Assembly: GCA_029262475.1 (NCBI GenBank)
Contig: JAJCZG010000028.1
Coordinates: 1 to 36,024 of the forward strand
Direction: 5' to 3'
Length of the DNA: 36,024 bases
Source of the DNA: Deltaproteobacteria bacterium
GTDB lineage: Bacteria > Desulfobacterota > GWC2-55-46 > JAJCZF01
The translations under genes and the position numbers were made by a program. The stretch's first letter is position 1; the number at the start of each line of letters is the position of its first letter. Of this stretch, positions 16,079-33,662 are shown piece by piece. The notes beneath the pieces were generated by a model that saw only the letters and a list, made by a program, of their open reading frames with translations, was not told the origin of the DNA and ran no database searches.

Positions 16079-17647
16079 ATGACAAAAAACCTCCTGAAAA
16101 ATATCGGCCCGATCTACCTGCTTATCATAATTGCTGCGGCCTTCGGCGTCTACTTTAACGACCTCCTAAACGACTTCGTCATAGACGACCGCCACGTTAT
16201 CTTAAAGAACGCCTGGATAATGGATTACCGGTATATACCGAAGATACTCACATCCTCGGTCTGGGCCTTCCAGGACGAGCAGGGCATCTCGAACCACTAC
16301 AGGCCGCTCCACCTTATTTACTATATGGCGGTATATTACCTCGTCGGCATAAAGGAGTGGGGCTTCCACCTCCTAAATAACCTCTTTCACACGGGCTCCG
16401 CCGTATTCGTCTACCTGATAGCGCTTAAACTATTCGAATGGAAAGAGGGGGGAGCTGGAAGAGCCGACGTTTCTCCGACGCTTACATTGAGCAAGATACG
16501 CATACCGGCGCTCTTTACGGCGCTGGTCTTCGCCACGCATCCTGTAAATACCGAGGCCGTGGTCTGGGTATCGGCTACAAGTGAAGTAAGCTTCGCCTTC
16601 TTCTGCTTTGCGAGCTTCTACTTCTACATATCTTCCGCCGGTGAGTGGTCAGCGAGGTACTGGCTCTCGGTCTTATTCTTCCTTCTAGGAGCTATGAGCA
16701 AGGAGACATCGGTCTTTTTACCCATTGCGATGGTCGCTTACGACCTGACCATCGGCGGCGAGGGGGTAAGGCCGGTATTTAGATGGATAAAGCGGTACGC
16801 GCCTTTCGTGGCGGCGGGTATATTCTATCTCGTGGCGAGGAGCTATTCACTCGGCGGTATCGCGCCCATGCGCAACACCCCGGATATGGCCGGGGGAGAT
16901 ATCGCGCTTAACTTCTTCCCTCTCGTATGGGCATATATCTATAAGCTCGTCTTACCGGTAGAGCTAATATTTTACGAATACCTTACCCCGGCCCATTCCG
17001 TTACCGACGCGGTAGTGATCTTCTCGATACTTGTAATACTCGCCGTTATCATTCTAGCCGTATGGTTCGGGCTAAAAAACAGACTCGCCCTCTTTGCGCT
17101 ATTATGGATATTTATCCCCATGCTTCCGGTCTTTCAGATATCGTTCTTCAAGGGGCACCCGGCGCTCGCCGAAAGATATCTTTACGTGCCGACGATGGGT
17201 TTCGGGATACTCATCATGTGTATGTATCTTTACATCATAAAAAAGAGAGAAACCTTAAAGCTACCGCTGCTCGCTCTACTCACTATCTTAATTTGCCTCT
17301 ACTCCTACGCCACCATCGAGCGAAACCGCATTTGGCGTACGGAGATAGCGATATGGGAAGATACCATAAAGAAGGCCCCGAACAATAAATACGCCTACAA
17401 TAACCTGGGCATACTGGTAACAAAGGGCGGCGAAGTGGAAAAGGGCATCTCGCTCTTCAGGAAGGCTATCGAGATAGACCCGATGCACCACCCGGCGAGA
17501 AATAACCTCGGAGCGGCACTCGCCAAGAGCGGGCGCATAAGAGAGGCGGCGGCGGAGTTCAGCACCGTCCTAAGGAGCGACCCCGCGAACCCCGACGCCA
17601 GAGGGAACCTAAGTAAGGCGCTCATGATTCTAAATGAAGATCAGTAA
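16079..17647 (+). CDS. TMTC-like GT-C membrane glycosyltransferase with TPR tail (copy 1)
   Basis: The 522-residue integral membrane protein has about 11 hydrophobic segments and ends in two TPRs (about 437-505: YAYNNLGILVTKGGEVEKGISLFRKAIEIDP and the next unit). The first periplasmic loop carries D36-D37 in DFVIDDRHVI, the place of the catalytic Asp in GT-C enzymes. Also present are R75-P76 (HYRPLH), H154 in ATHPVNTEAVVWVSA, K208-E209-T210 (MSKETSVFLP) and ERYLYVP at 365. These are hallmarks of the bacterial relatives of TMTC O-mannosyltransferases, which use polyprenyl-phosphate sugars. It opens a five-gene operon whose members overlap or lie within a few bases. A weak promoter may exist (TTGCGT-17-TATCAA just upstream). 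Acceptor and sugar are unknown. Confidence 0.85.
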   Translation: MTKNLLKNIGPIYLLIIIAAAFGVYFNDLLNDFVIDDRHVILKNAWIMDYRYIPKILTSSVWAFQDEQGISNHYRPLHLIYYMAVYYLVGIKEWGFHLLNNLFHTGSAVFVYLIALKLFEWKEGGAGRADVSPTLTLSKIRIPALFTALVFATHPVNTEAVVWVSATSEVSFAFFCFASFYFYISSAGEWSARYWLSVLFFLLGAMSKETSVFLPIAMVAYDLTIGGEGVRPVFRWIKRYAPFVAAGIFYLVARSYSLGGIAPMRNTPDMAGGDIALNFFPLVWAYIYKLVLPVELIFYEYLTPAHSVTDAVVIFSILVILAVIILAVWFGLKNRLALFALLWIFIPMLPVFQISFFKGHPALAERYLYVPTMGFGILIMCMYLYIIKKRETLKLPLLALLTILICLYSYATIERNRIWRTEIAIWEDTIKKAPNNKYAYNNLGILVTKGGEVEKGISLFRKAIEIDPMHHPARNNLGAALAKSGRIREAAAEFSTVLRSDPANPDARGNLSKALMILNEDQ

Positions 17648-19235
17648 ACTCAAAATAGCGGCTATCTCAGCCGTCTTCATAGTATCGATACTCGTATATG
17701 TTAATACGCTCGGTAATGAACTCGTGCGCGACGATAAGCACGTCATCCCGGATAACCCCTGGATAACGAGCGTAAAATATATCCCGGAGATTTTAACCTC
17801 GCCGGTATTCGCATTCAGCGGCGACGAGGACGTCTCCAACCAGTACAGGCCGCTTTATCACATATACCTCATGCCGGGCTACGCCATATCCGGCATTAAA
17901 CCCTTCGGCTTTCATCTCGTAAATATTATCTTTCACGCCATCTCGGCTGTCTTTGTCTTCCTTACGGCAGCGGCCCTTCTTTACGGGCGAAGGAGAGAAA
18001 GAGAGCCTCAGTACGAAGAAGACGGCGGCGCTTCAAGCGGCTTCGCTGCTGCTGCCGCCCCGCTTGCGGCGGCACTCCTGTTTGCCACCCACCCTGTAAA
18101 CACCGAGGCGGTAGGGTGGATAAGCGCGATTAGCGAACTCTCCTTTGCGTTATTCTATATTATAAGCCTCTATCTATTCATAAAGAGCGTCGGCAAGGCC
18201 AACGCCGCCTATATCTTCTCCGTCTTATTCTTCTTCGTATCCGCATGCTCGAAGGAGACGGCCGCAACTCTTCCGCCCTTGCTGTTTTTCTACGAAATGC
18301 TCGTAAGGAGAGAGGGGCTCGCAAAGGCAGTAACACGCATGCTGCCGTTTGTAGGGGCTGGAGTAATATATCTCACAGCGAGGGTCTATGCGCTAAAAAG
18401 CACGATCCCCCTTACCGCTAGCCACGCAGAAGATCTCTCCGGATTTCAGCTCCTTATAAATGTGCCGCCTTTAATTGTTCAATACGCATGGAAGCTTTTG
18501 TACCCGGTACGCTTGAGCTTCGACTACGCATTTCACCCTGTATACTCGCTCGCAGAAGCGCGCGCCCTGCTGCCTCTTCTGGCGGTGATTATCTTGCTGG
18601 CTATCTTCTATATATTAAAGAGAATAAACCCCGGCGTATTATTCGCGCTCCTCCTGGTCTTCATGCCGCTCCTCCCGGCGCTCTACATACCGGCGCTCGG
18701 GGAAAACACTTTTACGGAACGCTACCTCTATGTCCCGGCGATGGGCTTCGGGATATTCCTGACACTCGGCGCGGTAAGCCTCAAGGGTTTTGTAAGGGAG
18801 CGCTGCGTAGCGTCGTTCAGTATCCTTAAGACGGCGCTCCCGGTGCTGGCCCTAGTCATTATATGCGCCTTTTCCGCCGGAACAGTAATGAGAAATTTCA
18901 CTTGGAAGACCGCATTTACGCTCTGGCAGGATACGGTAATAAAGTCTCCCGACAGTAGGATTGCGAGAAATAGCTACGGCATTGAGCTCGCTGCGCGTGG
19001 CAGGCTTATTGAAGCGGCCAGTGAGTTCAGGGCCGCGATTCTGATAGACCCGGACGGGGCGAGAGCGTATAATAACCTCGGCGTAATATACGCCAGGAAG
19101 GGCATGATACGAGAGGCGGCAATAGAGTTCGAAAAAGCCCTCAGGATAATTCCAAGCGACGAGGAGACGTGGGATAACTATAATAAGGCTCTTATTATTC
19201 TAAAGATGCGAGACGAAGGGAGTGCCAAGGAGTAG
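17634..19235 (+). CDS. TMTC-like GT-C membrane glycosyltransferase with TPR tail (copy 2)
   Basis: This 533-residue paralogue of the preceding gene overlaps it by 14 bp. D33-D34 (ELVRDDKHVI), QYRPLYH, ATHPVNTEAVGWISA, CSKETAATLPP and TERYLYVPAMGFG keep the same order and spacing. An insert rich in charged residues then alanine (RRREREPQYEEDGGASSG) separates two early membrane helices and is predicted to be a loop. Two C-terminal TPRs (ARNSYGIELAARGRLIEAASEFRAAILIDPD; AYNNLGVIYARKGMIREAAIEFEKALRIIPS) are close to the TPR consensus. Direct ATG start without strong Shine-Dalgarno suggests translational coupling. Confidence 0.85.
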   Translation: MKISKLKIAAISAVFIVSILVYVNTLGNELVRDDKHVIPDNPWITSVKYIPEILTSPVFAFSGDEDVSNQYRPLYHIYLMPGYAISGIKPFGFHLVNIIFHAISAVFVFLTAAALLYGRRREREPQYEEDGGASSGFAAAAAPLAAALLFATHPVNTEAVGWISAISELSFALFYIISLYLFIKSVGKANAAYIFSVLFFFVSACSKETAATLPPLLFFYEMLVRREGLAKAVTRMLPFVGAGVIYLTARVYALKSTIPLTASHAEDLSGFQLLINVPPLIVQYAWKLLYPVRLSFDYAFHPVYSLAEARALLPLLAVIILLAIFYILKRINPGVLFALLLVFMPLLPALYIPALGENTFTERYLYVPAMGFGIFLTLGAVSLKGFVRERCVASFSILKTALPVLALVIICAFSAGTVMRNFTWKTAFTLWQDTVIKSPDSRIARNSYGIELAARGRLIEAASEFRAAILIDPDGARAYNNLGVIYARKGMIREAAIEFEKALRIIPSDEETWDNYNKALIILKMRDEGSAKE

Positions 19236-20807
19236 ATGGGACGCGGTATAGTAGATAAGAAGCTCCCCCATATAGTATTTCTGTTCGCGGTATCGGCGGG
19301 GATATATATAAAGACCATCAACGGGGAGTTCGTCTCGGACGACATCTATCAGGTGCTTCAAAACCCGTGGATAAGGGATTTTTCACACTTAAAGGAGATA
19401 TTATTCTCCTCGGTGTGGTCCTTTATACCCGAGGGGAGCGGCTCTAAATACTACCGCCCGGTCATGTACCTCTTCTATATCCTCGGCTACCAGCTCTCGG
19501 GTAGCGAGCCGTGGGGGTATCATCTTATAAAGATACTACTCCATTCGGCGAGCACCATCGCACTCTTCTTTCTGACGATCAGGATACTTGAGTCTGCAAG
19601 TTTAAAGAAAGTCGTAGGCGAAAAGGCCTACGGACTTTCAACGGCGACGGCCTTCTTCGCGGCCCTTTTATTCGCCACGCACCCGGTAAATAGCGAGGCT
19701 GTGGCGTGGGTAGCGGCCCTGCCGGAACTAAGCTTTACTCTCTTCTGCTTACTCTCGTTCTACTTCTATACGGTAAGGCGCTACATGCTAACCGCCCTCT
19801 TCTTCTTCCTCTCTCTTATGAGTAAGGAGACGGCCATTGTGCTCCCTCTACTCCTCCTAGCGTACAACATATCCTTTGGCAGCGGGTTTATTGGCACTGT
19901 CTCGACAGATAAGATAACAAAAAGATACCTGCCGCTCTGCGTGGCATTCGCTCTCTACCTCGTCCTGCGCTTCATTGCAATGGGCGAGGTCGCCCCAGCA
20001 GGCGTGACGGAAAAACTTTTAAATGGATACGAGTACTCCTTAAATATCTTGCCCCATATATGGGCTTACATGAAAAAACTCGTCTGGCCAACCGACCTCG
20101 TATTCTTCAACCTCCTTAGGAGCGATCCCGTAACCTCCCTCCTTGCCATTAAGAGCGTCGTAGCCATCATACTGAGCCTCGTTACCTTATCTATACTCGC
20201 CGCAGTACGGAAGGTCTACCCGCATATCTTCCTCTCGGCTACATGGATATTCCTGCCCGTACTACCTGTTATATACTCGGGGTGGGTGAGCGGCTTTCCG
20301 CTATTCGCCGAACGCTACCTATACCTTTCGACCGCCGGATTCTCTCTCTTTGTCTCCTTCGTGGCGGCCGAGATATTCCTCTACTTCAGGGCCGGAAAGG
20401 GTGCTGCGGCTGTCTTTCTTATTGTTATGTTATTAATCTCTACGGTATTCTCGGTGATGACCGTATCGAGGAGCATTGTCTGGATGAATGCCTTTAACCT
20501 CTGGCAGGACGGCTCCATAAAGGCCCCGGCAAACCCGGAGATACGCATAAACTACGGAAACGAACTCGCAAAACGTAACCTCTTAAACGATGCCCTGGTA
20601 GAGTATAAGGCCGCACTAAAGCTAACGCCCGAGAGTGCTAGCCTTCATAACGGTATAGGTATCACCTACGCAAAGCTCGGCCTCTTCAAAGACGCCGTTA
20701 GCGAGTTCGAAGTAGCCTTAACACTTGGCCCCGACAGGGAAGAAGAAGAGGCGATAAGGAAGAACCTCGAAATAGCCGTTGGGGTCCTCAGGGGCGAGGG
20801 CCGCTAA
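19236..20807 (+). CDS. TMTC-like GT-C membrane glycosyltransferase with TPR tail (copy 3)
   Basis: The 523-residue copy begins immediately after the stop of copy 2 (TAGATG). It has D35-D36 in EFVSDDIYQV, KYYRPVMY, ATHPVNSEAVAWVAALPELSF, MSKETAIVLP and AERYLYLSTAGFS. The motif DDIYQV is shared with copy 4 but not with copies 1 and 2, so copies 3 and 4 look like the closest pair. Two TPRs end the protein (RINYGNELAKRNLLNDALVEYKAALKLTPE; LHNGIGITYAKLGLFKDAVSEFEVALTLGPD). An Asn for Thr change in HPVNSEAV is the only visible deviation in that motif. Confidence 0.85.
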   Translation: MGRGIVDKKLPHIVFLFAVSAGIYIKTINGEFVSDDIYQVLQNPWIRDFSHLKEILFSSVWSFIPEGSGSKYYRPVMYLFYILGYQLSGSEPWGYHLIKILLHSASTIALFFLTIRILESASLKKVVGEKAYGLSTATAFFAALLFATHPVNSEAVAWVAALPELSFTLFCLLSFYFYTVRRYMLTALFFFLSLMSKETAIVLPLLLLAYNISFGSGFIGTVSTDKITKRYLPLCVAFALYLVLRFIAMGEVAPAGVTEKLLNGYEYSLNILPHIWAYMKKLVWPTDLVFFNLLRSDPVTSLLAIKSVVAIILSLVTLSILAAVRKVYPHIFLSATWIFLPVLPVIYSGWVSGFPLFAERYLYLSTAGFSLFVSFVAAEIFLYFRAGKGAAAVFLIVMLLISTVFSVMTVSRSIVWMNAFNLWQDGSIKAPANPEIRINYGNELAKRNLLNDALVEYKAALKLTPESASLHNGIGITYAKLGLFKDAVSEFEVALTLGPDREEEEAIRKNLEIAVGVLRGEGR

Positions 20808-20809
20808 AG

Positions 20810-22438
20810 ATGGTCCGTACAAACACCAATAAACTTAAAGTGGCGCTCGGAGTAGTGCTCGCACTAGCGGCGTGGCTCCTCTACATAAATACCTTAAGCG
20901 GGGAGTTCATAAAAGACGACATCTACCAGGTGCTCCGTAACGAGTGGATACGCGACTTTAGAAATACCCCGGAGATGATATTTTCTTCGGTCTGGTCCTT
21001 TATGGAAGACGGCGGTGAGGCGACATTTTACCGCCCGGTGATGCACCTCTCGTATATGATATCCTACGCCCTCTCGGAGCTCCGTCCCTGGGGCTTTCAT
21101 CTGGTAAATATCCTCCTCCATTCGCTAAATGTTATAATGGTCTACCTCCTCTCGCTAAGGCTCCTTAGGGATACGATAGAAGGAGGTGCGGATACGAGCA
21201 ATGATAGCAGACCCGGCAAGCGTACCGTCTACGGCGCCTTCGGTGCGGCCCTTATCTTTGCCGCCCACCCTATTAATACCGAAGCTGTCGCATGGGTGGC
21301 GGCAGTACCCGAGCTCTCATTTACCCTCTTTTTTCTAATAAGCTTTTATTTCTTCATCAGGGAGAAGGTATTATTATCGACCGCGTTCTTCTTCCTCTCG
21401 GTATTTTCAAAGGAGACGGCGGTCGTCTTGCCTATCTTGTTCGCTCTCTATACTATAACAATAGGGCCGAGGGAGGGACGCCTCTTAAAGGGCGGCGCGC
21501 TAGGTTGGGTTAAAGGCTTCGCACCGTACCTTCTGGTAATATGCATCTATTTAATTATGCGCGTAGTGGCTCTAGGTGCGCTCGCTCCGGTATCAAGGGG
21601 GAGCGAAGGCGGGCTTCCGCTCTACTTGAGCGCGCTTAACTCCATTCCGCTCTTACTAAAGTATATTGAAAAGCTATTCTTACCGGTTAATCTCGTCTAC
21701 TTCCACCACATAAGGTTCGATATCATCACCGGCTTCGGCCCTGGCGCAGCGGCGTATCTCCTTACGACACTCGTTAGTACCGGCCTGCTCTTCATCCTTT
21801 ATAAAAAAGAAAAACGTATATTCTTCTTTGCAGCCTGGATACTTGTTGCCCTTATACCGGCGCTCGGGCTCGCTTTTCTTCGCGGCAGCCCCGACTTCTC
21901 CGAGCGCTACCTCTACTTCCCGGCCGCAGGGTTCGGCCTCATTCTTGTTTCTATCGCGCTTAAATTTATTGGATACTGCTCCGGCAAGACGGGAGTTAAC
22001 GCCGCCGAAAGAAGACGAAAGCGGGGAACCCTTGCGGTTACCATCGCTTTCACTTTGCTTATTCTGGTATACTCCGCCGGTACGGTTAAGAGAAACGCCG
22101 TATGGTCCTCGTCCATCGGGCTATGGGCCGATGTTGTGGAGAAAGCTCCGGAGAATATGACGGCGCGTCTATGGTACTATAACGAACTCATAAAAAGCGA
22201 AAGACTGGACGCGGCAATAGACGCCCTTAATGGGGCAATAGAAATTTCTCCACCCGGCGACGACGCGCTCGACGGTCTCCATAATAACCTTGGCATAGCC
22301 TATGCAAAAAAAGGCATGATAAGAGCAGCCGCTCTTGAGTTTCAAAAGGCGTTAAGCATTGCGCCGGAGAATAAAGAAGCCGCCACTAACCTTGAGCAAG
22401 CCGCAGTCATATTAAGAGCAGAAAGACAGAATAAATGA
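20810..22438 (+). CDS. TMTC-like GT-C membrane glycosyltransferase with TPR tail (copy 4)
   Basis: The 542-residue copy starts two bases after the stop of copy 3. The motifs are D36-D37 (EFIKDDIYQV), TFYRPVMHLSY, AAHPINTEAVAWVAAVPELSF, FSKETAVVLP and SERYLYFPAAGFG. The first TPR region has lost the usual small-residue pattern (ARLWYYNELIKSERLDAAIDALNGAIEISPP), while the second is canonical (NNLGIAYAKKGMIRAAALEFQKALSIAPE). A basic linker (AERRRKRG) before the last membrane helix is probably cytoplasmic. Its stop overlaps the next start in ATGA, so the GT39 gene behind it is translated with it. Confidence 0.85.
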   Translation: MVRTNTNKLKVALGVVLALAAWLLYINTLSGEFIKDDIYQVLRNEWIRDFRNTPEMIFSSVWSFMEDGGEATFYRPVMHLSYMISYALSELRPWGFHLVNILLHSLNVIMVYLLSLRLLRDTIEGGADTSNDSRPGKRTVYGAFGAALIFAAHPINTEAVAWVAAVPELSFTLFFLISFYFFIREKVLLSTAFFFLSVFSKETAVVLPILFALYTITIGPREGRLLKGGALGWVKGFAPYLLVICIYLIMRVVALGALAPVSRGSEGGLPLYLSALNSIPLLLKYIEKLFLPVNLVYFHHIRFDIITGFGPGAAAYLLTTLVSTGLLFILYKKEKRIFFFAAWILVALIPALGLAFLRGSPDFSERYLYFPAAGFGLILVSIALKFIGYCSGKTGVNAAERRRKRGTLAVTIAFTLLILVYSAGTVKRNAVWSSSIGLWADVVEKAPENMTARLWYYNELIKSERLDAAIDALNGAIEISPPGDDALDGLHNNLGIAYAKKGMIRAAALEFQKALSIAPENKEAATNLEQAAVILRAERQNK

Positions 22439-24015
22439 AATCATCGTCGAGTTTATTTTATAAGATAGGGTTCGTTAACACCCTCTACGACTGGCGCTTT
22501 CTCATCGTGCTACTTGCTTTGGCCCTAATTGCCGTCTGGCTCGTGGAGAAGAAGGAGCGCGACGTAAGCCCTTCGCTCTACGCCATCATGGGGGTGCTCT
22601 TCGTCTACGCCATCCTCTACCCCCTTGATATGGTTCCGCATATGAACTGGTTTATCCCGCTAAAAGACCCGTCCGTCGCCGTGGTGATATACTACCAGTC
22701 CTTCGTCTACGCCGCTCTCTTCGTCGTAGCTCTATGCTACTACTTCTTCTACGCGCGACCGAAGTTATACGGCGGACTAACGCAGCCCGGCGATAAGGAG
22801 GGGCTCTCTCTCTATCTGCCGCTCGCTCTCATAATAGCATTCACCGTCGGGCAGCAGGTCTACGGCTATACATCCGACTTCTGGCTCTATCAGGAGTCGG
22901 ATTCGCCGAGGTATTTCCAGTACTCGGCAATACTCCTCCGTGACGGCTTCAAGGCGTTTGTTGATACCTGGATGCTCCCGGTAAACTATTACCAGATGTA
23001 CGAGCTCGACATGCCGCTCGTCCCATTCCTCTGGGTTCAGCTCTACAAGGTCGTCTCTCTATTTGCAACCGGCCAGAGTGGAGCAGACATCACGAGCCAC
23101 ATAATCTCACTTTCGTACTGGGCGCTCTCGCTATGGGGGACCTTCCTCGTAGGTAGGGAGCTCTTCTGTAGAAGGGTCGGCGCGTACGCGGCACTCTTCC
23201 TCGCCTTTGTCCCGTACTATTCATTCCTGGGCTACCTCTACATGGCCGACGTGCCCTTTACGGCGATGATTACGATAACGACCTTCTTCTTTATAAGGGC
23301 CGTAAAGAGGGATAACGTCCGGTACGGTCTTCTTACGGGCATATTCCTTATTCTGGCGATACTTACCAAATCCATTGCCCTTTATATGTTCGTCCCGTTT
23401 ACGATCTTCTACCTGCTCTTCAGAACGAAACGCCAGTGGAGGCCCGAGGCGGCCTTCGCCGTCGCCTTCGTAGCGGGCCTCTCAGTACTTATCGGCATCC
23501 TCATCTACTACTACGGCGGAGAGACATGGCAGATAATCGCCGACTTCATAGCAAGAAAGAAACGGATTGCAGGCGTTGAATCTTTCCGCATGCGGCAGGG
23601 CTACGTCTCACTCTACCACGACGGCATAATCTCGGCCTTCTTCTACGTTAGATACATAACGGCCTTCCTCGGCTTCGCCGTACTCCTCCTCGCGCTCGTC
23701 TCCGTATACCTCAAGTTCAAGGGCAAGCTCACCGAAGCAAAAGAGCATATCTTCCTCATCCTCTGGCCTCTGGGGCTTATCGTCTACTTCTCTTTCTCTC
23801 TTACTAAATCGTCCCGGTGGCTATGGTCAGGGTACCCGGCCCTGGCGATACTCGCGGCATGCGGACTGGTGGCGCTCTCGGAGAAGACGAGGGACAGGGG
23901 GGCGCTCTACATAGTCCTTGGGCTAGCGCTTGTAGAGATGTTATTTAGGCACATCTCGTTTTACCAGTCGCTTGTCAGTAAACTCTGGATACTCTCGGAT
24001 TATGCGGTCTTCTAG
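22435..24015 (+). CDS. GT39-like (PMT_2/ArnT-type) membrane glycosyltransferase
   Basis: The 526-residue polytopic protein has about 12 hydrophobic segments. It differs from its four upstream neighbours: no TPR tail, and a longer N-terminal part with three helices before the acidic loop SDFWLYQESDSPRYFQYS, which holds the candidate catalytic acidic residues (D/E) of GT-C enzymes. DMPLVPFLW, GRELFCRRVGAYAALFLAFVPYYSFLGYLYMADVPF and LAILTKSIALYMFVP are typical of the PMT_2/GT39-GT83 group (polyprenyl-phosphate sugar dependent). It ends the plus-strand operon and faces the radical SAM gene across a 73-bp convergent gap with no clear terminator. Confidence 0.8.
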   Translation: MKSSSSLFYKIGFVNTLYDWRFLIVLLALALIAVWLVEKKERDVSPSLYAIMGVLFVYAILYPLDMVPHMNWFIPLKDPSVAVVIYYQSFVYAALFVVALCYYFFYARPKLYGGLTQPGDKEGLSLYLPLALIIAFTVGQQVYGYTSDFWLYQESDSPRYFQYSAILLRDGFKAFVDTWMLPVNYYQMYELDMPLVPFLWVQLYKVVSLFATGQSGADITSHIISLSYWALSLWGTFLVGRELFCRRVGAYAALFLAFVPYYSFLGYLYMADVPFTAMITITTFFFIRAVKRDNVRYGLLTGIFLILAILTKSIALYMFVPFTIFYLLFRTKRQWRPEAAFAVAFVAGLSVLIGILIYYYGGETWQIIADFIARKKRIAGVESFRMRQGYVSLYHDGIISAFFYVRYITAFLGFAVLLLALVSVYLKFKGKLTEAKEHIFLILWPLGLIVYFSFSLTKSSRWLWSGYPALAILAACGLVALSEKTRDRGALYIVLGLALVEMLFRHISFYQSLVSKLWILSDYAVF

Positions 24016-25198: not shown

Positions 25199-25207
25199 AT
25201 TATAACC

Positions 25208-26329
25208 TTACCCTTCGCCTTCCGCCCGTTTGATACTCTCACGGTTCGGGTTCTGCCAGACAGACGCCTTATTCCTGTATAGGATGAAATATACCCACCC
25301 CAGGTGGATAGCGGCAATCTGCAACGCAGCAAATGGGTTTAAGATAAGCACTGCGATATATATAGCTATACACCCCAGGAGAAAGGCCGGGAAGCTAATT
25401 GACGTAAGAAACGGAATAGAGAGGACGAAGAGCGTCACCAGCGGCAGGCACCTCGGTATAAATATATAGAATGGAAAGATAAAAGAACCGTAACCACGGG
25501 TACGCGAGCTAAAGAAGATATCCTTATTCGTAATGCACGTATGTATCTGCCTCCCGGCGTGTCTGGTAAGCATCCTTAGAAGTTTAGGAAGGTTCGTATC
25601 GGCGTACTGAAAGCCCCTTGCCCCGGCGTGCGTCTTCGCCCTCTTACCCTGCCTCGCTATTTCGATAGCGAGCGAGAGCTCGTCCTCCATCGCGCCCGCG
25701 GGGTACGGCGGGAGCGAGCTCTTCTTATAGACGTAACACGGCCCCTGTATGATAGCCGAGCTTGACCTTTCTCCCTGAAGTTCGCAGAGATACGCCTGCT
25801 TGTGCTCGTGTTCGTTCATCTTAGTTCCGATACGGCTTTCGCCCTTGTACGTATACTCGCAGTAGCCCGATACCGCTACGACATCCGGAGGGGAGTCAAA
25901 AAGCTCCATAACGAGCTTCTTTACGGTATCTTCTTCAAGAGTAACATCGGCGTCGGTTACGAATACATACTCGCTCGAAGCCGCATTTCTCCCCGCCTCC
26001 AGCGCTGGCTGCTTACCGGGGGCGGACTCAACGACCCTTACACCAAGGCGAGTGCATATATCCCCGGTCTTATCGGTTGAGTTATTTAGCGCCACTATGA
26101 CAGTCAGGCGGTCGCTTGGGTAGGCCGTATAGAGGTTTTTTATCTTGGCCTCTATGACGCCTTCTTCATTAGCCGCAGGTATTACGCATGTAAGCAGCGG
26201 CCACTCGTTTACGGCCGCCGGATCATTATGGGTCTTAGGGTTTCTTTTGGCGATCCTCAGGTAATAAATATCGTGGATAGTGTAGGAGGTGAGTACTATA
26301 CATATTATTATGATGATGATAAGCCACAT
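25208..26329 (-). CDS. Membrane-anchored family 2 glycosyltransferase
   Basis: The 373-residue protein begins with a membrane helix (residues 1-18, WLIIIIIICIVLTSYTI), followed by a GT-A domain: CVIPAANEEGVIEAKI, ALNNSTDKTGDI, the metal-binding D-x-D in VTDADVTL, a catalytic-base candidate in GAMEDELSLAIEIA and a RHAGRQIH stretch comparable to the R-x-x-R-W region of processive GT2 enzymes. Two to three helices near 275-355 end the protein. Such an architecture fits a cellulose/hyaluronan-synthase-like or beta-glycosyltransferase acting at the inner membrane. It is 9 bp upstream of the radical SAM gene. Donor sugar is unknown. Confidence 0.8.
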   Translation of the reverse strand: MWLIIIIIICIVLTSYTIHDIYYLRIAKRNPKTHNDPAAVNEWPLLTCVIPAANEEGVIEAKIKNLYTAYPSDRLTVIVALNNSTDKTGDICTRLGVRVVESAPGKQPALEAGRNAASSEYVFVTDADVTLEEDTVKKLVMELFDSPPDVVAVSGYCEYTYKGESRIGTKMNEHEHKQAYLCELQGERSSSAIIQGPCYVYKKSSLPPYPAGAMEDELSLAIEIARQGKRAKTHAGARGFQYADTNLPKLLRMLTRHAGRQIHTCITNKDIFFSSRTRGYGSFIFPFYIFIPRCLPLVTLFVLSIPFLTSISFPAFLLGCIAIYIAVLILNPFAALQIAAIHLGWVYFILYRNKASVWQNPNRESIKRAEGEG

Positions 26330-26401
26330 AACTGATGTCTTATAAGTCTTTATGTTGTAGGCGCCGGCCTGGAGGGGGCCAGTGCCTTGAGGCGAAGCCG
26401 A

Positions 26402-27622
26402 TCAGGCCCCGTACTTTTTCGCTGTCTCGGCGATGAGGGTCGCGTCGTCGTCTGAAATCCACGGGCCTATTGGTATACACATGGCGTGCTCCGAGAAGTA
26501 GTCGAGCCCGGCCATCTTGAGCCTTCCGCCGGTGAACTCGTCTGTGACCGAATAGGCGTCGTTACGCACATGTACGTTCGAGACCTCTACCCCCTCCGAG
26601 CGCATGGACTCGGAAAAAGAATACGGGTCGCGTACGAAAACCGTATAGAGCCAGTAAGATGAATTCCTGCTTGATAGAGGGCGCGTCGGGAACTCCCCTT
26701 CTGCGGTAACCTCTGGGAAGTGCTCGTCGTAGATAGCAGCTACCGCCCTTCTTCTCGCGAGGTTCTCGCCGAGCTCTCCGAAGGAGGCGATGCCGATGCT
26801 TGCGGCTATGTCGTTTAACTGCCACTTCCTGCCGGCCTCGGTTATGTCGTATGATGAATGACCGAGTATATGCTCTCTGCGCTCGTCCCTCGGTATACCG
26901 AACCACTTAAATGGCTTGGAGCGCTCAAAGCTCTTCTTGTGCTTAAAGACAACACCCCCGCCGTCACCGGTCGTTACGTGTTTAATCGCCTGGAACGAAA
27001 AGCAGGTAAAGTCTCCGAGCGCGTTCCAGCCGCCTACGAGCGCCTCTCCGCCGTCCTTAGAAGCAGTGCTCGAACCCATCGCATGGGCCGCGTCCTCGAC
27101 GACCATTATACCGTGCTCGTCGGCAAATGCGGATACCCCCGCCATATTGAGCGTGCTCCCGCCCCAGTGGACGGTCATAAGCGCGGCAGCCCTTTCTATG
27201 ATACCGGAAGGCAGGGCCCTTAACGCCTCGGGCGAAAGCAGCCCGGTAAAGGGGTCTATATCGACGAAGTACGGTTTAAGGCCGGTATTTAAAATTGCCA
27301 CCGTAGTGGCCATACATGTCATGGGTGTTGTAAGGACTATATCCCTGCCTGGAGTGGTCTTACAGAAGGTAAGGGCCATCTCTATGGCCGAAGTGCCGCT
27401 ATTAACGGCGGTGACGAACTTATTATCTATAAAACCGCTTATAAGCCCCTCGAACTCTTTTACCTTCGGACCCTCCCCTATCCACCCCGTAGTCAGGCAG
27501 TCTTCGAGGAGCTTCATCGCCGGGGCTTTAGGCACGTAGGGCTTAAAGAGCCTGTGCTTAAATGGGCCGCAGAGTATCTTCTGGGAGTATTCCTTCCGTT
27601 CCGGGTGCATCGTCTTCTCCAT
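26402..27622 (-). CDS. DegT/DnrJ/EryC1/StrS-family PLP aminotransferase
   Basis: I start at ATG 27620-27622, which overlaps the stop of the upstream gene as TAATG; the longer ORF to 27721 would run inside that gene. The 406-residue enzyme shows the nucleotide-sugar aminotransferase fold: LEDCLTTGWIGEGPKVKEFEG, AVNSGTSAIEMAL, the PLP-binding D177 (VVEDAAHAMGS) and the internal-aldimine lysine K214 in FSFQAIKHVTTGDGGGV. It converts a keto-sugar nucleotide to an amino-sugar nucleotide, probably for a surface glycan. The FQAIKHVTTGDGG form of the motif resembles perosamine-synthetase-type members. Position specificity cannot be read from the sequence. Confidence 0.88.
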   Translation of the reverse strand: MEKTMHPERKEYSQKILCGPFKHRLFKPYVPKAPAMKLLEDCLTTGWIGEGPKVKEFEGLISGFIDNKFVTAVNSGTSAIEMALTFCKTTPGRDIVLTTPMTCMATTVAILNTGLKPYFVDIDPFTGLLSPEALRALPSGIIERAAALMTVHWGGSTLNMAGVSAFADEHGIMVVEDAAHAMGSSTASKDGGEALVGGWNALGDFTCFSFQAIKHVTTGDGGGVVFKHKKSFERSKPFKWFGIPRDERREHILGHSSYDITEAGRKWQLNDIAASIGIASFGELGENLARRRAVAAIYDEHFPEVTAEGEFPTRPLSSRNSSYWLYTVFVRDPYSFSESMRSEGVEVSNVHVRNDAYSVTDEFTGGRLKMAGLDYFSEHAMCIPIGPWISDDDATLIAETAKKYGA

Positions 27623-28998
27623 TACTTGATTAACTTCCTTGAAAGCTCTTCGGCCAGTATGAAGGCGAGCTTCATGCACTGGTCGATATCCATATACCTG
27701 AACCCTCCCGTCCTGCCGCAAAAACTCACGTCAGGAATAGAGTCGCAGTATTCCGTATAAATTTTAAAATTCTCCCTGTATCCGTAAAGATACATCGGGT
27801 AGGCGTGCGAAGCCTTAAGCAGGTAGATATCATTAACATCCGATTCCTTGAGTAACCCCTCTTCTTCGAGGTGAGGAATATAGCGGCTGAAGAGCTCTTC
27901 CTTCTCCTTTGTCCACCACTCGTCGCCCAGGTGGCAGCTCTGCTCTATGGAGATCATATTGCCAGACCTTCCGGCCTTTGGTACGAGCGTAAAATTACCA
28001 ACGTCGGTAATCCTGTTATAGGGCTTCTCCAGGCAATACTCGTACATGCAGTCTAGTATCTCTTTCTTTCCGGTCGCTATATAGAGGATGAGGAGCGAAA
28101 GATATTTTAACGATACGGCAGCCTCGATCACCTCGGCGGGCGGCGCTGGGTCAAGGAGCTTAATAAAGGCATTTATCGGGATAGTGGACACGAGATGGTC
28201 CGCCTTAAACTCCCTCGCCTCGCCCATTGCGTTTGTAGCCGTTACCAGAAAACCGCTGTCCTTAAGGCGTTTCACCTTCGTCGCCCTAAGCCCCGTATGA
28301 ACGCTCCCGCCTGCGGATATTAACTTCGCGGCCATCCGCTCGGGTATGGCCCCGAAACCTTCCTTCGGGTAATAGAGCGGCAGCATCTCCCGGTCTATTA
28401 TGGAGTAATTATCCCTCCTCTTCTTCGGCGTCAGCAGGAGTTTAAGGGTTTTAGCGAAACTCATCTGCTTGTACGTCGGTATGCAGTCCGGGGAGAGCTC
28501 GTCGCATTTCACATCCCAGAACTGCTCGGTATAGGGCTTAAAGAATAGCTTATGGAGGGCTTTGCCGAAGTGGTGCGTACTCCACTGCTCCATATTCGGC
28601 CCGAAAGGGCCCTCCTTTGGAGCGCCCTTGAGCTTTTCAATAAGAAAGCTTATAAAGCACTTAAGCGAAGGGCTAAGTCCGAGTTTATGAACTATATCCT
28701 CGGCATTTAAAGGGTAGCGCAGGTACTTGCCGCTCATATACAGACGCACGTCTCTTACGCCCATCTGGATCCCCTCCTTGAAGAGGCCGGTTATGGTAGC
28801 GAGTATCTCCTCGTCTTCGGAAAATACCGAGTGGGGACCAAAGTCCATCTTGTGCCCGTCGGTCTTAATCGTAGCCGCAAGACCGCCGATATAGTCCTTT
28901 CCCTCAATAACCTCCACGGGGATGCCGTTCTCCGCGAGCTTCCAGGCAAGGCTTAACCCTGAGATACCGCCGCCCAGAACGGCTACCTTCTTTTTCAT
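27622..28998 (-). CDS. FAD-dependent oxidoreductase, UDP-galactopyranose mutase/protoporphyrinogen oxidase-like
   Basis: The 458-residue flavoprotein has an N-terminal Rossmann dinucleotide motif GGGISGLSLAWKLAENGIPVEVIEGKDYIGGLAATI, then DFGPHSVFSEDEEIL, KYLRYPLN and FFKPYTEQFWDVKCDEL. A C-terminal FAD contact region FCGRTGGFRYMDIDQCMKLA matches UGM-like enzymes. These proteins in glycan clusters rearrange or oxidise NDP-sugars or lipid-linked sugars. It is not a canonical Glf: the length and the FGPHS segment are closer to the broad NAD(P)/FAD amine-oxidase group (COG1232). It is the first gene of a four-gene minus-strand cassette and is divergent from the TMTC gene at 29250. Confidence 0.75.
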   Translation of the reverse strand: MKKKVAVLGGGISGLSLAWKLAENGIPVEVIEGKDYIGGLAATIKTDGHKMDFGPHSVFSEDEEILATITGLFKEGIQMGVRDVRLYMSGKYLRYPLNAEDIVHKLGLSPSLKCFISFLIEKLKGAPKEGPFGPNMEQWSTHHFGKALHKLFFKPYTEQFWDVKCDELSPDCIPTYKQMSFAKTLKLLLTPKKRRDNYSIIDREMLPLYYPKEGFGAIPERMAAKLISAGGSVHTGLRATKVKRLKDSGFLVTATNAMGEAREFKADHLVSTIPINAFIKLLDPAPPAEVIEAAVSLKYLSLLILYIATGKKEILDCMYEYCLEKPYNRITDVGNFTLVPKAGRSGNMISIEQSCHLGDEWWTKEKEELFSRYIPHLEEEGLLKESDVNDIYLLKASHAYPMYLYGYRENFKIYTEYCDSIPDVSFCGRTGGFRYMDIDQCMKLAFILAEELSRKLIK

Positions 28999-29200: not shown

Positions 29201-29229
29201 TTAAGAGCCGGTATACGGTAATATATAAT
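29201..29229 (+). promoter_or_regulatory. Sigma70-type promoter for TMTC-like copy 5
   Basis: TTAAGA (29201-29206) and a consensus TATAAT (29224-29229) are 17 nt apart, 20 bp before the ATG at 29250. The leader would be only about 14 nt and lacks a strong Shine-Dalgarno sequence. No matching promoter was found for the divergent gene at 28998 in the rest of this 251-bp gap. Confidence 0.55.
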
Positions 29230-29249
29230 CCAAAAACCTTACGGCGGCG

Positions 29250-30872
29250 ATGACGGCTCGAATAGAAAATAAAGAACTAACCTGGCCTTATATAATCATT
29301 ATCTTTTTGGCGGCGTCGGCGGTATACCTGGGCACACTTGGTAACGAGTTCATCTCCGACGACAAGACCCAGATAGCAAAAAATATCTGGCTGACGGATA
29401 TCTCTTATATCCCGCGTCTCCTCTTCTCTACGGTCTGGGATTTTCTCCCCGGCGAGGGGGACTCCAACTACTACAGACCCGTAAAATACCTACTCTACAC
29501 GCTAGTCTACCAGTTCTCCGGATACGAGCCGTGGGGCTACCACGTATTAAAGATAATCTTCCACGCCCTTACGAGCGTCGTTATATACTTTATCGGCAGA
29601 GAGCTCGTAAAAGTTTATTCCACAAGGGCCCTTGCTACGGCAGTCATTAAGGACGGTACCGGGGTTAAAAAACCAGGCCCCGGCGACGAATACACTACGG
29701 CCATGCCCTTTATAGCGGCCATCCTCTTCGCCCTGCACCCGATAAATACCGAGTCCGTAGCATGGATAGCCGCCATCCCCGAGGTCTCTTTTACCCTCTT
29801 CTCGCTCCTAAGCATACTCCTCTTCATAAAGGGCAGGCACATGCTCTGCGGCTTGGCCTTCCTAATAGCGGCGCTCTCAAAGGAGACGGCGATGGCGATG
29901 CCTCTACTGGCGCTCGCCTTCGACCTCCTGATACTAAAACGCCCCGTCTGGCCGCCGCTACAGTTCATAAAGCGCTACATGTCTTTTATTGTAGCCGCAG
30001 CCGTATATACAATTATGCGGACCTATACCCTCGGCGGAGAGTTCCTCGGCCTCGGAGACGCCGGAGAAACACTCCTTACGAAGGGCGAGTACATCTTAAA
30101 TATTCCGCTTATACTCGGTAAATACCTCCGTAAGCTCACCATGCCGACGGATATAAGTTTTTATAACTTCATGACCTTCGACCCGGTCCATTCGCTCTCG
30201 GAAGTTAGGGCCATAGCCGGGGTCCTTCTATTTGCCGTCCTCCTGGCAGTGCTCCTGTGGCTCCTCATTAAAAAGCCCGAGTTCCTCTTCGCCGCCGTGT
30301 GGATAATAATCCCGCTACTTCCGGTATTCTTCATAGGATGGAAGAGCGGAAGCCCGGTTTACGAGAGCCGCTACCTCTACGCATCTACCGGCGGCTACAC
30401 ACTCCTCTTTGCGCTCCTCTACTCACAGCTCATAAACCGGGCGCGCATTAAAGGTGGCTCTATGGTCAGCCTATTAAGGGCCGCCCTATTAATAGTAGTT
30501 ATACTCTTCACCGCCAGCACGGTAATGAGGAACTTCGACTGGCAAAGCGAATATACCATCTGGCGCTCCGCAGCAGAGACTAACCCCGATAGCAGGGCCG
30601 TAAGGATCGACTACGGCGTTGCGCTCGCAAGGCGCGGCGAACTCGACAAAGCAATGACCGAATTCGAAGCCGCTATAAGGATAGACCCGGAGAGCAGCGG
30701 CGCATATAATAATATCGGGATAATACATGCAAAGAGAGGCGACCTGAGGGCCGCTTTAAAGAATTTTAGAAGGGCCGTGGAGTTGGATCCGAGAAACGAA
30801 GACGCGGTAAAGAACCTGACGGGTGTAATACTCCTCATAAACTCAGGCACAGCCGGAGCGGCCGGGCGCTAG
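29250..30872 (+). CDS. TMTC-like GT-C membrane glycosyltransferase with TPR tail (copy 5)
   Basis: The 540-residue copy stands alone, 5.2 kb away from the four-gene array and between two minus-strand blocks. D37-D38 (EFISDDKTQI), NYYRPVKYLLY, ALHPINTESVAWIAAIPEVSF, LSKETAMAMP and ESRYLYASTGGYT follow the family order. EPWGYHVLKIIFHALTS resembles copy 3 (EPWGYHLIKILLHSAST). Two consensus TPRs end it (VRIDYGVALARRGELDKAMTEFEAAIRIDPE; AYNNIGIIHAKRGDLRAALKNFRRAVELDPR). It has its own promoter, so its expression can differ from the array. The gene ends 27 bp from the convergent GT2 gene. Confidence 0.85.
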   Translation: MTARIENKELTWPYIIIIFLAASAVYLGTLGNEFISDDKTQIAKNIWLTDISYIPRLLFSTVWDFLPGEGDSNYYRPVKYLLYTLVYQFSGYEPWGYHVLKIIFHALTSVVIYFIGRELVKVYSTRALATAVIKDGTGVKKPGPGDEYTTAMPFIAAILFALHPINTESVAWIAAIPEVSFTLFSLLSILLFIKGRHMLCGLAFLIAALSKETAMAMPLLALAFDLLILKRPVWPPLQFIKRYMSFIVAAAVYTIMRTYTLGGEFLGLGDAGETLLTKGEYILNIPLILGKYLRKLTMPTDISFYNFMTFDPVHSLSEVRAIAGVLLFAVLLAVLLWLLIKKPEFLFAAVWIIIPLLPVFFIGWKSGSPVYESRYLYASTGGYTLLFALLYSQLINRARIKGGSMVSLLRAALLIVVILFTASTVMRNFDWQSEYTIWRSAAETNPDSRAVRIDYGVALARRGELDKAMTEFEAAIRIDPESSGAYNNIGIIHAKRGDLRAALKNFRRAVELDPRNEDAVKNLTGVILLINSGTAGAAGR

Positions 30873-30898
30873 AGGAAGCGGTGCTTAAAAGGCCGGGC

Positions 30899-31678
30899 TT
30901 ATTTATATCTGCCACGGATGTCGTTTAAACGAATCTTAACAAGATCCATCATCATCATGAAGGGGTGTATCAGGGGGTTCACGCGGGACTCGAAGCGATT
31001 AAACCACTGGACCGGTATTTCTTTTATCCTGTAGCCGTGCTTCTCGGCGATAAAGAGTGTCTCCACGTCAAAGCCAAAACCCTCGATACGCTGCCTCGGG
31101 AATACGTCCTTATAGGCCTTCTTTGAAAAGCCCTTAAAGCCGCACTGAGTATCCTTAATGCCCTTTATCGTAAGTAGCTGCACCAGGAGGTTAAAGGTCT
31201 TACCCATAAGCTCCCTCCACCACGGCTGGTGCACGGCAACGTCTGAGCCCTTGATGCTCCTCGAACCGATGCCAACGTCATAGCCGTCCTCATACCACTT
31301 AAGGAGTTTAGAGATTTCTTCGACCGGCGTTGAGAGATCGGCGTCGGTAAAGCAGGCGTACTCGCCGCGAGCATTCAGGAAACCGTTCTTTACGCTAAAA
31401 CCCTTACCCCTGTTTTTGATATTTTCCACCACGCGGAACTCCGGGTGGGTTTTGGCGAAGATTTTGGATATCTCGACAGTACGGTCCCTGCTGCCGTCAT
31501 CAACGACTATGACCTCATAGCTATAATCCTCAGCCGAGAGGTAGGCCGACACCGTCGCTAGAGTATCCTCAATGAGCTTATCCTCATTATAACAGGGTAT
31601 AATAAGGGTCAGGTAGGGCGCACTACCGCCTTGTTTGGCGATTTTGGTCTTTTTTACAGGTTTTTTATTCTTATTCAT
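30899..31678 (-). CDS. ALG5-like GT2, polyprenyl-phosphate glycosyltransferase
   Basis: The 259-residue GT-A enzyme has a basic N-terminus (NKNKKPVKKTKIAK), LTLIIPCYNEDKLIEDTL, VIVVDDGSRDRTVEI, NIKNRGKGFSVKNGFLNARGE, the D-x-D in CFTDADLSTP, and GSRSIKGSDVAVHQPWWRELMGKTFN. DTQCGFKGFSKKAY and EGFGFDVETLFIAEKHGYRIKEIPVQWFNR complete the signature of the dolichyl-phosphate beta-glucosyltransferase (ALG5) branch. No C-terminal membrane domain is present. It should make polyprenyl-phosphate-sugar on the cytosolic side for GT-C enzymes. It follows the six-TPR-class gene of the same operon after a 151-bp gap that contains a weak promoter-like stretch (TTGACG near 31783-31788). Confidence 0.85.
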   Translation of the reverse strand: MNKNKKPVKKTKIAKQGGSAPYLTLIIPCYNEDKLIEDTLATVSAYLSAEDYSYEVIVVDDGSRDRTVEISKIFAKTHPEFRVVENIKNRGKGFSVKNGFLNARGEYACFTDADLSTPVEEISKLLKWYEDGYDVGIGSRSIKGSDVAVHQPWWRELMGKTFNLLVQLLTIKGIKDTQCGFKGFSKKAYKDVFPRQRIEGFGFDVETLFIAEKHGYRIKEIPVQWFNRFESRVNPLIHPFMMMMDLVKIRLNDIRGRYK

Positions 31679-31829
31679 AAGCCTCGGTCCAACTATTTAT
31701 ATCGGTCTTCTAGAATTAAAGTCTTAGCCTTCTTTCGCTTATTTAATGACTATATAGGATTTTTATATACAATAGAGACTTCGTCAAGTTAACATTTTTT
31801 AATCGAGCAAGCTCTCCTTAAGATAAAGA

Positions 31830-33662
31830 CTACTCGGTGGCTCGGTCCTCCAGTATCCTCTTCGCTTCACTGAGGTTCTTTACGGCCTCACTGCTCAAAG
31901 GGTCTATCTCCAGGGCCCTCTCAAATGACGCCGCCGCCGCCCCTATATCCCCCAAGCCTGCGTATGCTATCCCCATATTATTATAGAGATCGGCCCAGGG
32001 TTCCAGGATCGAGACCGCCAAGCGGTACTCCTCTATTGCCTCATTGTAGCGCGCAAGCTTAGCGAGCACGTTTCCGTAATTATAATGGATATCCCCATCT
32101 TCGGGCATTAGCTCTGAGGCGACCGCATACTCCTCAGCCGCATTATCAATTAGCCCCACCTCCGAGTAGGTACGCGCGAGATAATAACGAACCTTTCCGT
32201 CGCCTGGCTTGAGTTGGGCTGAGGCGATGTACTCTTTTATTGCCTCTTCAAGTCGGTCGAGTTTATAGTAGGTATTCGCAAGATTTAAGTGCGCGTCGGC
32301 CAGCTCCGGGTCAATGGAGATGGCCCTCTTGTGATTAACGATAGCATCTTCCAGTAACCCCTCTTCGGAGTAAGAGTTAGCAAGGCTCATGTAAGCCCTT
32401 GCATGCAACGGGTTCGTCTCTGTGACGCTTTGCCAGAGAGAGACGCTCCCGGCCCAGACCTCCGCCCTCCTCATGGATAAGACCGATGAAGTCAGTACGA
32501 GCAGAGCCAGGATCACTACAGCCGCGGCCCGACGACCATTACCCTCCCCCTCCCGACACCAGAGATAAAAATGGTGGAAGGCCGTACCAACGAGCAGAAA
32601 GAGCCCTATAGAAGGCAGGTACATATACCTGTCGGCTATCGTTGAGCCGCCCGAGGCGAACGGGATGATCTTTATTACCGGCGAAAGGGTTACGACAAAG
32701 AAGAGGAAGGAAAATACCAGTAACCGTGTCCTCTTCCTCGTTAAAAAAACGACAGCGATTATAATAATAAGAAGTATCACAGGGATAAAGAACTCCGCCG
32801 CTAGGAGCGAGACCTGCTCCGAATGCGGGTATATGACCGAGAGGTTTACCGGCAAAAGTGTCTTCGATATATATGTAATAAGGTTCCTCACCGTAACGAG
32901 CATATTCTGTGAAGCAGAGAGCGGAATGAGCGAGCCGAGCTGGTTCATATCCTTATACATGAATAGCGTATCCACGGCGAATACCCCGCTAAGGAAGAAG
33001 AAGGGGAGCTTATCCTTTAAGCTCCTAAGTGTAATGGGCCTGCCCCGCAGGTAATCGCATAGCAAAAGTACCGCCGGGAGTGTCACAGACGTTAGCTTCG
33101 ATAAGAGGGCCAGGAGAAAGGTCGCTACGGATAGCGAATAAAGACCCTTCCCTCCGCCTCCTCCGCCGCCATCACCACTAGGCTTCTCCATGTAGAGGAG
33201 GTAGAGTATTACGCTTTGAAGATAGAAAAAACCCGATAAGAGCCCCTTCCTTTCAGAGACCCATGCTACCGTCTCAACCTGCAGCGGATGCACCCCGAAA
33301 AAGAGTGAAGCGACGAGAGAGGCCGTAAGCCTCCCGGTGAGCTTCCATAGGAGGCAGAAGACGAGCAGGGTATTTAGTATATGTATGATGAGGTTATCGA
33401 GGTGATAGAGGAACGGATCAAGGGCCGCGAAATGGTACTCCGCCATAAACGAGAGGAGCACCGTTATGAATCGGTAGTCGTTCTTATAAAATGTCGAGAG
33501 TATCTCTTTAAGATTATCCCACGAGAAGGAGTGGATAAGCGGGTTATCGGTAACGTAGACGTTATCGTCCCAGTTGGTAAAGCCGTTATCCAGTAGCCCC
33601 CAGAAGGTCGCGACCGTAACTACGATTATAAGACCTATGGAGAGGATGAATTTATTTCTCAT
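31830..33662 (-). CDS. TMTC-like GT-C membrane glycosyltransferase with five TPRs (copy 6, divergent)
   Basis: The 610-residue protein has D32-D33 in FTNWDDNVYVTDNPL, GVHPLQVETVAWVSERKGLLSG and ADRYMYLPSIGLF, the typical form of bacterial TMTC-like proteins. It differs from the other five: the R-P motif reads DYRFITVLL, the KET motif is LLSKLTSVTLP, and the tail has five consecutive TPRs (about 425-600) rather than two. A run of seven glycines (SGDGGGGGGGKG) lies in a loop between helices; it uses mixed codons and is not a homopolymer at DNA level. The gene is 39 bp behind the DPM1-like GT2 and is transcribed with it. It probably arrived or diverged separately from the array. Confidence 0.85.
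   Translation of the reverse strand: MRNKFILSIGLIIVVTVATFWGLLDNGFTNWDDNVYVTDNPLIHSFSWDNLKEILSTFYKNDYRFITVLLSFMAEYHFAALDPFLYHLDNLIIHILNTLLVFCLLWKLTGRLTASLVASLFFGVHPLQVETVAWVSERKGLLSGFFYLQSVILYLLYMEKPSGDGGGGGGGKGLYSLSVATFLLALLSKLTSVTLPAVLLLCDYLRGRPITLRSLKDKLPFFFLSGVFAVDTLFMYKDMNQLGSLIPLSASQNMLVTVRNLITYISKTLLPVNLSVIYPHSEQVSLLAAEFFIPVILLIIIIAVVFLTRKRTRLLVFSFLFFVVTLSPVIKIIPFASGGSTIADRYMYLPSIGLFLLVGTAFHHFYLWCREGEGNGRRAAAVVILALLVLTSSVLSMRRAEVWAGSVSLWQSVTETNPLHARAYMSLANSYSEEGLLEDAIVNHKRAISIDPELADAHLNLANTYYKLDRLEEAIKEYIASAQLKPGDGKVRYYLARTYSEVGLIDNAAEEYAVASELMPEDGDIHYNYGNVLAKLARYNEAIEEYRLAVSILEPWADLYNNMGIAYAGLGDIGAAAASFERALEIDPLSSEAVKNLSEAKRILEDRATE

Follow-up and report, generated by a model that had tools for sequence, protein, structure and literature searches.

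A tandem array of TMTC-like GT-C proteins with TPR tails in a deltaproteobacterial genome and its possible role in periplasmic glycosylation

Gene content of the array locus

The stretch of DNA analysed here (hereafter, the window) covers 36,024 nucleotides and is one whole contig (JAJCZG010000028.1) of the 2.40-Mb genome of a member of the Deltaproteobacteria. Between positions 16079 and 33662 it contains six genes whose predicted products join a membrane core of the GT-C glycosyltransferase type, similar to that of the animal TMTC proteins, to C-terminal tetratricopeptide repeats (TPRs). Four of these genes form an array, and two genes for GT2 glycosyltransferases similar to DPMS, a dolichyl/polyprenyl-phosphate-sugar synthase, flank the sixth. 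The genes are listed below, with the basis of each assignment in brackets (ORF, open reading frame; AF2, AlphaFold model).

16079..17647, plus strand: array copy 1, TMTC-like GT-C with TPRs, PELSF-type motif present as SEVSF (ORF, Pfam, AF2 model of the core)
17634..19235, plus strand: array copy 2, TMTC-like GT-C with TPRs (ORF, Pfam)
19236..20807, plus strand: array copy 3, TMTC-like GT-C with TPRs (ORF, Pfam, tree)
20810..22438, plus strand: array copy 4, TMTC-like GT-C with TPRs (ORF, Pfam, tree)
22435..24015, plus strand: last (fifth) gene of the operon, a GT-C of PMT_2 type lacking TPRs (PF13231, E 4.5e-15)
29250..30872, plus strand: detached copy 5, TMTC-like GT-C with TPRs, of the clade of copies 1-4 (Pfam, tree, AF2)
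30899..31678, minus strand: GT2, dolichyl/polyprenyl-phosphate-sugar-synthase-like, putative donor synthase (PDB 5mlz, DPMS, E 9e-23)
31830..33662, minus strand: copy 6, TMTC-like GT-C with about five TPRs, ERKxLL-type subfamily (Pfam, motifs, tree)
33702..34391, minus strand: GT2, DPMS-like, putative donor synthase (PDB 5mlz, E 1.4e-16)

All six GT-C/TPR reading frames are intact, and the C-terminal TPRs scored above the Pfam cut-offs in every copy, as had been proposed in the original prediction from the sequence of this DNA. No Pfam or NCBIfam model gave convincing coverage of the membrane half of the six copies. The head-to-tail order of copies 1-4 is confirmed by the gene junctions (gene end/next start 17647/17634, 19235/19236, 20807/20810 and 22438/22435), which overlap or abut; the PMT_2 gene, overlooked in the original prediction, overlaps copy 4 by 4 nt and closes the operon. 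Judging from these overlaps, copies 1-4 and the PMT_2 gene probably share one transcript, in line with the co-translation suggested earlier. Copy 5 lies about 5 kb downstream of the array on the same strand, and copy 6, on the minus strand, is flanked on both sides by the co-oriented GT2 genes, the one at 33702-34391 being located 39 nt upstream of it.

Predicted fold, motifs and descent of the copies

A fold search was needed because a PDB sequence-profile search returned, among the matches listed, only TPR proteins, and zero matches for the core alone. AlphaFold models were obtained for the copy-1 core (pLDDT 90.9, pTM 0.92) and for full-length copy 5 (pLDDT 91.1, pTM 0.92). The high-probability PDB fold matches of the copy-1 core were all GT-C proteins (OST/STT3, ArnT, AftA, EmbB, DPY19 and PglB), with TM-scores of at most 0.51 and E-values of 0.002 or weaker, and transporters appeared only at a probability of about 0.1 or less. 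PIG-U was among the fold matches, and a library of viral structures gave no useful match. The GT-C core originally proposed is thus supported by the models, and no assignment to a non-transferase membrane family emerged. The helices of the models were read as 11 transmembrane segments with the N-terminus inside, the TPRs outside and all the catalytic motifs in outside loops; the density of Lys plus Arg per residue is about 0.21 in the cytoplasmic loops vs 0.07 in the periplasmic loops. This predicted arrangement agrees with the published topology of TMTC proteins (PMC7801869). With a GT-C fold and an acidic motif in the first extracytoplasmic loop (EL1), the window proteins are, as modelled, members of the GT-C superfamily.

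In order to assign the copies to subfamilies, 200 core sequences were compared. Copies 1-5, which share 32-41% full-length identity with copy 1, belong to a subfamily with the typical motifs SNxYRP, HPxxTEAV, xxPELSF, SKETA and FAERYLYLPS, and they carry DD, YRP, an HPxNTEAV-like motif, KET and (E/S)RYLY. The motifs DD, YRP, KET, PxxP and ERYLY of the window correspond to the TMTC motifs M1, M2, M4, M6 and M7, respectively (PMC7801869). The shared motif list of the original prediction therefore stands for copies 1-5 and fits copy 6 poorly: the latter shows WDDN, YRFI, HPLQVETV, ERKGLL, SKLT and DRYMY, has a core identity of 24% and is assigned to another subfamily, the ERKxLL type.

The motifs M1 (DD), M2 (YRP) and M7 (ERxxY) are all present in copies 1-4; copy 5 has SRYLY at M7, and copy 6 has YRFI at M2 and DRYMY at M7. 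As for M4 (KE(T/Q)xxT), KET is found in copies 1-5, the complete KETxxT only in copy 2, and KLTxxT in copy 6. At M3 (RxD, in EL2) copies 1-5 show (T/I/L/V)-(S/P)-E, the Arg being replaced by an uncharged residue, and copy 6 has RKG; Glu is the usual acid at this position in the PELSF-type subfamily. The Asp-Trp pair of M5 (in EL4) is not conserved in copies 1-5, each having a different sequence (FYE, FDY, FFN, YFH and FYN). DD, on the other hand, is invariant across 58 aligned relatives, nearly all of which have TPRs according to Pfam, 18 of them also having PMT_2. The TMTC_DUF1736 family (PF08409) is absent from the 25 commonest Pfam families of these relatives; it scored below the cut-off in all six window copies, only copy 2 giving a weak match (18.1 bits vs 27), and no protein of the whole genome exceeded the cut-off. 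With a hidden Markov model (HMM) of the core, the E-values of the window copies (1e-131 to 1e-182) are inflated, as the model was built from the window proteins; independent relatives scored about 1e-105 to 1e-128, which places the similarity far beyond chance.

In the phylogenetic analysis the PELSF subfamily forms a single clade (support 100/93). Within it the window copies 1-5 group together with moderate support (88/92), and copy 3 and the detached copy 5 are sisters (99/86), and a clade of copies 1-4 alone, without copy 5, was disfavoured but not rejected (p 0.059). A further array of four genes from this subfamily was found at locus L041 and, within family f6, in two genomes (L168 and L169); its corresponding positions are conserved from genome to genome, and a GT2 gene sits in its middle. 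The approximately unbiased (AU) test rejected the idea that window copies 3-4 are orthologous to f6 positions 3-4 (p 0.003) but did not reject the equivalent match of copies 1-2 to f6 positions 1-2, which is thus less certain (AU p 0.105). On the basis of these tests, PELSF-subfamily arrays probably formed at least twice, and the tree supports an origin of copies 1-5 by tandem duplication within this lineage, as originally envisaged for copies 1-4.

The copies have not diverged evenly along their length. The proposal that they combine one catalytic core with divergent loops does not apply to the catalytic loops EL2 and EL3, which are the most conserved (68% identity among copies 1-5), followed by EL5 (47%) and EL1 (43%); it does apply to the TPRs (36%), to EL4 (29%) and, the short N-terminus apart, to the cytoplasmic loops (9-21%). 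Cytoplasmic loops are out of reach of a periplasmic acceptor. EL4, which holds M5, the proposed metal-ligand motif of TMTC, would be the likeliest seat of specialisation.

Abundance and genomic neighbours of related genes

The HMM search detected about 21 genes of this type in the genome. Within the order of the window's host, 28 of the 29 genomes searched (the present one included) have at least one copy, up to 21, and at the level of the phylum 122 of 233 good genomes were positive with limited per-genome scoring. We also collected 80 named loci, the best-matching ones, from many phyla according to record titles; they were chosen by a motif taken from the window proteins and are thus biased towards close relatives. 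The highest numbers in the named genomes were 46 (a Geobacter metagenome-assembled genome (MAG)), 27 (Smithella, including six consecutive genes) and 26 (a Nitrospirae MAG). Geomonas silvestris Red330 has 12 copies and, at L175, a GT2 gene paired with a TMTC-like one. In the Geobacter MAG (G042, source of locus L071) the 46 genes lie in 3.9 Mb and two have in-frame stops, which suggests rapid birth and death. Runs of adjacent co-oriented copies occur in 22 of the 80 loci (two or more copies) and in 7 (three or more). An array is thus a common arrangement and no oddity, and arrays of three or more are not a defining feature; the original prediction had supposed that such an array could define a modification system. 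Most of the TMTC-like genes of the window's genome are single or paired among housekeeping genes, outside polysaccharide clusters. One of them (L157, contig C31, 275-4995) has genes of phage-like appearance, as judged by eye, within a few kb.

Two associations absent from the original prediction, with donor synthases and with pilins, are the best functional clues. When the neighbours of 119 loci were clustered, DPMS-like GT2 genes were the commonest neighbours other than TMTC-like genes, filling 20 of 264 slots at gene rank 1 vs 3 of 714 at rank 3 or more (odds ratio 19, p 2e-9). In the 80 named loci they occur 0.83 times per 10 kb up to a distance of 800 bp from a TMTC-like gene and about 0.04 times beyond, and the PELSF arrays of L041, L168 and L169 contain a GT2 gene inside. 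The best PDB match of both window GT2 proteins is 5mlz, a solved DPMS structure, and their best NCBIfam match is PgfS, below the cut-off in both cases. The closest relatives of the protein at 30899 in the compared loci (57% and 55% identity) are encoded by genes that abut TMTC-like genes (L177 and L187).

Type IV pilin genes, called by regular expression in the named loci (seven were checked with family models), show a similar pattern, with 0.90 per 10 kb in the 800 bp on either side of a TMTC-like gene vs about 0.08 beyond, 12 of the 14 adjacent pilin genes being co-oriented with it. For the window's order, pilin matches were crossed with TMTC matches and the loci then read: at least 8 of 28 relatives (L203-L210) have a PilA-like and a TMTC-like gene as neighbours, and a PilR-type regulator is often nearby (Pfam for L204). 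Further pilin-TMTC loci were found in several phyla (L045, L047, L053, L058, L070, L081, L095, L105, L106 and L110), and the pilin-adjacent TMTC-like gene is often located between the PilR-type regulator and pilA. Going by this gene context, the pilin-adjacent proteins are likely pilin glycosyltransferases.

A large membrane protein of about 760 residues recurs beside pilA and the TMTC-like gene in L205-L209; that of L208 has C-terminal TPRs and a membrane half without a Pfam match:

L205, 4845-7139; L206, 678-2963; L207, 895-3198; L208, 513-2798; L209, 1172-3451: membrane proteins of about 760 residues

The pil cluster of the window's own genome (pilB, pilT, pilC, pilS and pilR; L211, contig C128 1-7831) is cut at the contig start inside a pilin gene, the best-scoring one of the genome, and contig C17 (L153) starts inside a TMTC-like gene; it is possible that these two contig ends join.

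Proposed function and its alternatives

Taken together, the evidence points to periplasmic transferases that depend on a polyprenyl-phosphate sugar and probably act on secreted proteins, an explanation to which, as a whole, we give a probability of roughly 0.6. Its parts differ in strength: by homology and modelling, the copies are very probably active GT-C enzymes using such a donor, functional specialisation between them is reasonably well favoured, and a protein acceptor is slightly favoured. In the mechanism that we infer, one or both of the GT2 proteins (30899 and 33702) would charge polyprenyl phosphate with a sugar in the cytoplasm, and some flippase would move the sugar-lipid across the membrane. 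The TMTC-like protein would sit in the inner membrane, with its active site extracytoplasmic and its TPR tail in the periplasm. The DD acid of EL1 would be the catalytic or acceptor-binding residue, and the Lys of KET and the Arg of ERYLY would hold the lipid phosphate. In copy 1 these residues would be D36/D37, K208 and R366, respectively. The sugar would then be passed to an acceptor presented via EL4 and the TPRs. The likeliest acceptor is a protein that is secreted or located in the membrane, a pilin in the case of the pil-linked members, and copies 1-5 may serve different acceptors or sites. Several points speak for a protein acceptor: the TPRs, the linkage of relatives to pilin genes, the scatter of the genes outside glycan clusters and the precedent of known pilin transferases; moreover, genes of protein-specific bacterial O-glycosyltransferases are often close to that of the target (PMC12645811).

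Several observations weigh against this explanation. The PELSF subfamily has no member of known activity, and the loss of the M3 Arg and the change of the M5 Asp-Trp in copies 1-5 may mean that donor and metal use differ from those of TMTC. The pilin-linked members belong to other subfamilies (TQRF and ERKD types) than copies 1-5, and no pilin gene adjoins a TMTC-like gene in the window's own genome assembly, the array included. The GtrA flippase (PF04138), a candidate for the flipping step, was not found in the genome, related loci are non-independent samples in the linkage counts, and neighbouring sugar-aminotransferase and oxidoreductase genes would fit glycan synthesis as well. These and other genes of the window are the following:

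11433..13937, plus strand: fused sugar-1-phosphate nucleotidyltransferase and phosphohexomutase (best NCBIfam match mannose-1-phosphate guanylyltransferase, below the cut-off)
25208..26329, minus strand: GT2 membrane glycosyltransferase of the sugar-modification group, tie to the array uncertain (family search)
26402..27721, minus strand: DegT-family sugar aminotransferase, PseC-like below the cut-off, tie to the array uncertain

The fusion protein is a possible source of nucleotide sugar, linked to the array through proximity alone. Between the TMTC copies, the minus-strand group at 24089-28998 may synthesise an unusual amino sugar or glycan; it comprises a radical SAM/SPASM protein, a GT2, a DegT sugar aminotransferase and an FAD amine-oxidase-like protein. 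At 1000-1563 there is a fragment similar to IS256-family transposases (E 3e-35, below the cut-off), probably a decayed insertion sequence.

The main alternative is that the copies of the array each attach one side-chain sugar residue to a polysaccharide or lipid of the cell surface, in the manner of GtrA/B/C or three-component systems. A GT-C enzyme paired with a donor synthase is a hallmark of O-antigen modification (PMC11127046), a GtrB-like GT2 is present here by similarity and linkage, the last gene of the operon is of the PMT_2 type, and the window holds two DegT aminotransferases, further GT2 proteins and an FAD amine-oxidase-family protein. Yet the scatter of the TMTC-like genes among housekeeping genes, the genome's lack of a detectable GtrA, the TPRs, which are generally protein-binding, and the pilin genes adjoining relatives all argue against it, and we regard it as rather unlikely. 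Still less probable is that copies 1-5 are largely redundant and serve dosage only: their EL2 and EL3 are 68% identical, but overall identity is low (32-41%), intact copies have been kept despite long branches, and each of the four f6 array positions is conserved between genomes. Least probable of all is that some copies are silent, PIG-U-like GT-C scaffolds that bind a lipid-linked sugar and recruit partners via their TPRs, as the missing M3 Arg, the varied M5 and the PIG-U fold match might suggest, since DD, KET and RYLY are retained in copies 1-5 despite deep divergence and DD is invariant in the 58 relatives.

Among the closest known systems are the animal TMTC1-4 (CAZy GT105, a family that O-mannosylates proteins from Dol-P-Man), which share with the periplasmic transferases proposed here an 11-helix GT-C core, DD in EL1, YRP, KET, PxxP and ERxxY, followed by extracytoplasmic TPRs. 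The window proteins differ from them in the TMTC_DUF1736 scores below the cut-off, in the absent M3 Arg and changed M5 Asp-Trp of copies 1-5, and in the tandem arrangement with adjacent DPMS-like GT2 genes. Owing to the DUF1736, M3 and M5 differences we do not file the window proteins as GT105; on present evidence they are likened in their working to TMTC/ArnT-type enzymes. ArnT (GT83) and the three-component GT-C enzymes (Gtr, GT136) share the GT-C fold (TM-score 0.48 for ArnT, 5f15) and the polyprenyl-phosphate-sugar donor, made by a GT2 in the Arn and Gtr systems, whereas the window set has TPRs, multiple tandem paralogues and no GtrA found. The GT2 and GT-C pair of Streptococcus mutans Pgf (PgfS and the PMT_2 protein PgfM1) modifies surface proteins (PMC5856776); PgfM1, however, is reported to have 16 transmembrane segments, with no mention of TPRs, and the window GT2 proteins fall below the PgfS cut-off. 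As in the TMTC-like relatives, the genes of the extracytoplasmic enzymes TfpW (a GT-C) and TfpO/TfpM/PglS lie beside that of their pilin target (PMC11841053, PMC12645811); the present proteins differ in their TPR tail, and the window array is not pilin-adjacent.

The family itself is not new, as Eisenhaber 2021 had already pointed to full-length homologues of TMTC in prokaryotes (PMC7801869). The original prediction called the bacterial relatives little characterised, and indeed the literature searched, from which most subscription journals were excluded, yielded mentions of homologues and no functional study of prokaryotic ones; a 2025 review of bacterial O-glycosylation (PMC12645811) mentions neither TMTC nor tetratricopeptide. 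Within the same literature, the subfamily lacking the M3 Arg, the pairing of array and donor synthase, and the pil linkage appear to be undescribed.

More tentatively, and with the odds somewhat against it, bacterial TMTC-like GT-C/TPR proteins could constitute an extensive, undescribed class of periplasmic O-glycosyltransferases acting on proteins, to which the pilin transferases encoded at TMTC-pilA loci of several phyla would belong. In lineage-specific arrays such as the present one, numerous enzymes, each specific for an acceptor, would then draw on a small number of donor synthases, and the animal TMTCs would be relatives of this class. TMTC-like enzymes reach 10-50 copies in some bacterial genomes, and the linkage to GT2 and pilin genes makes protein glycosylation a directly testable hypothesis for what would otherwise be annotated as TPR-containing membrane proteins. 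Pilins are the first candidate substrates, and a bacterial model for the mannosylating TMTC enzymes of animals could result.

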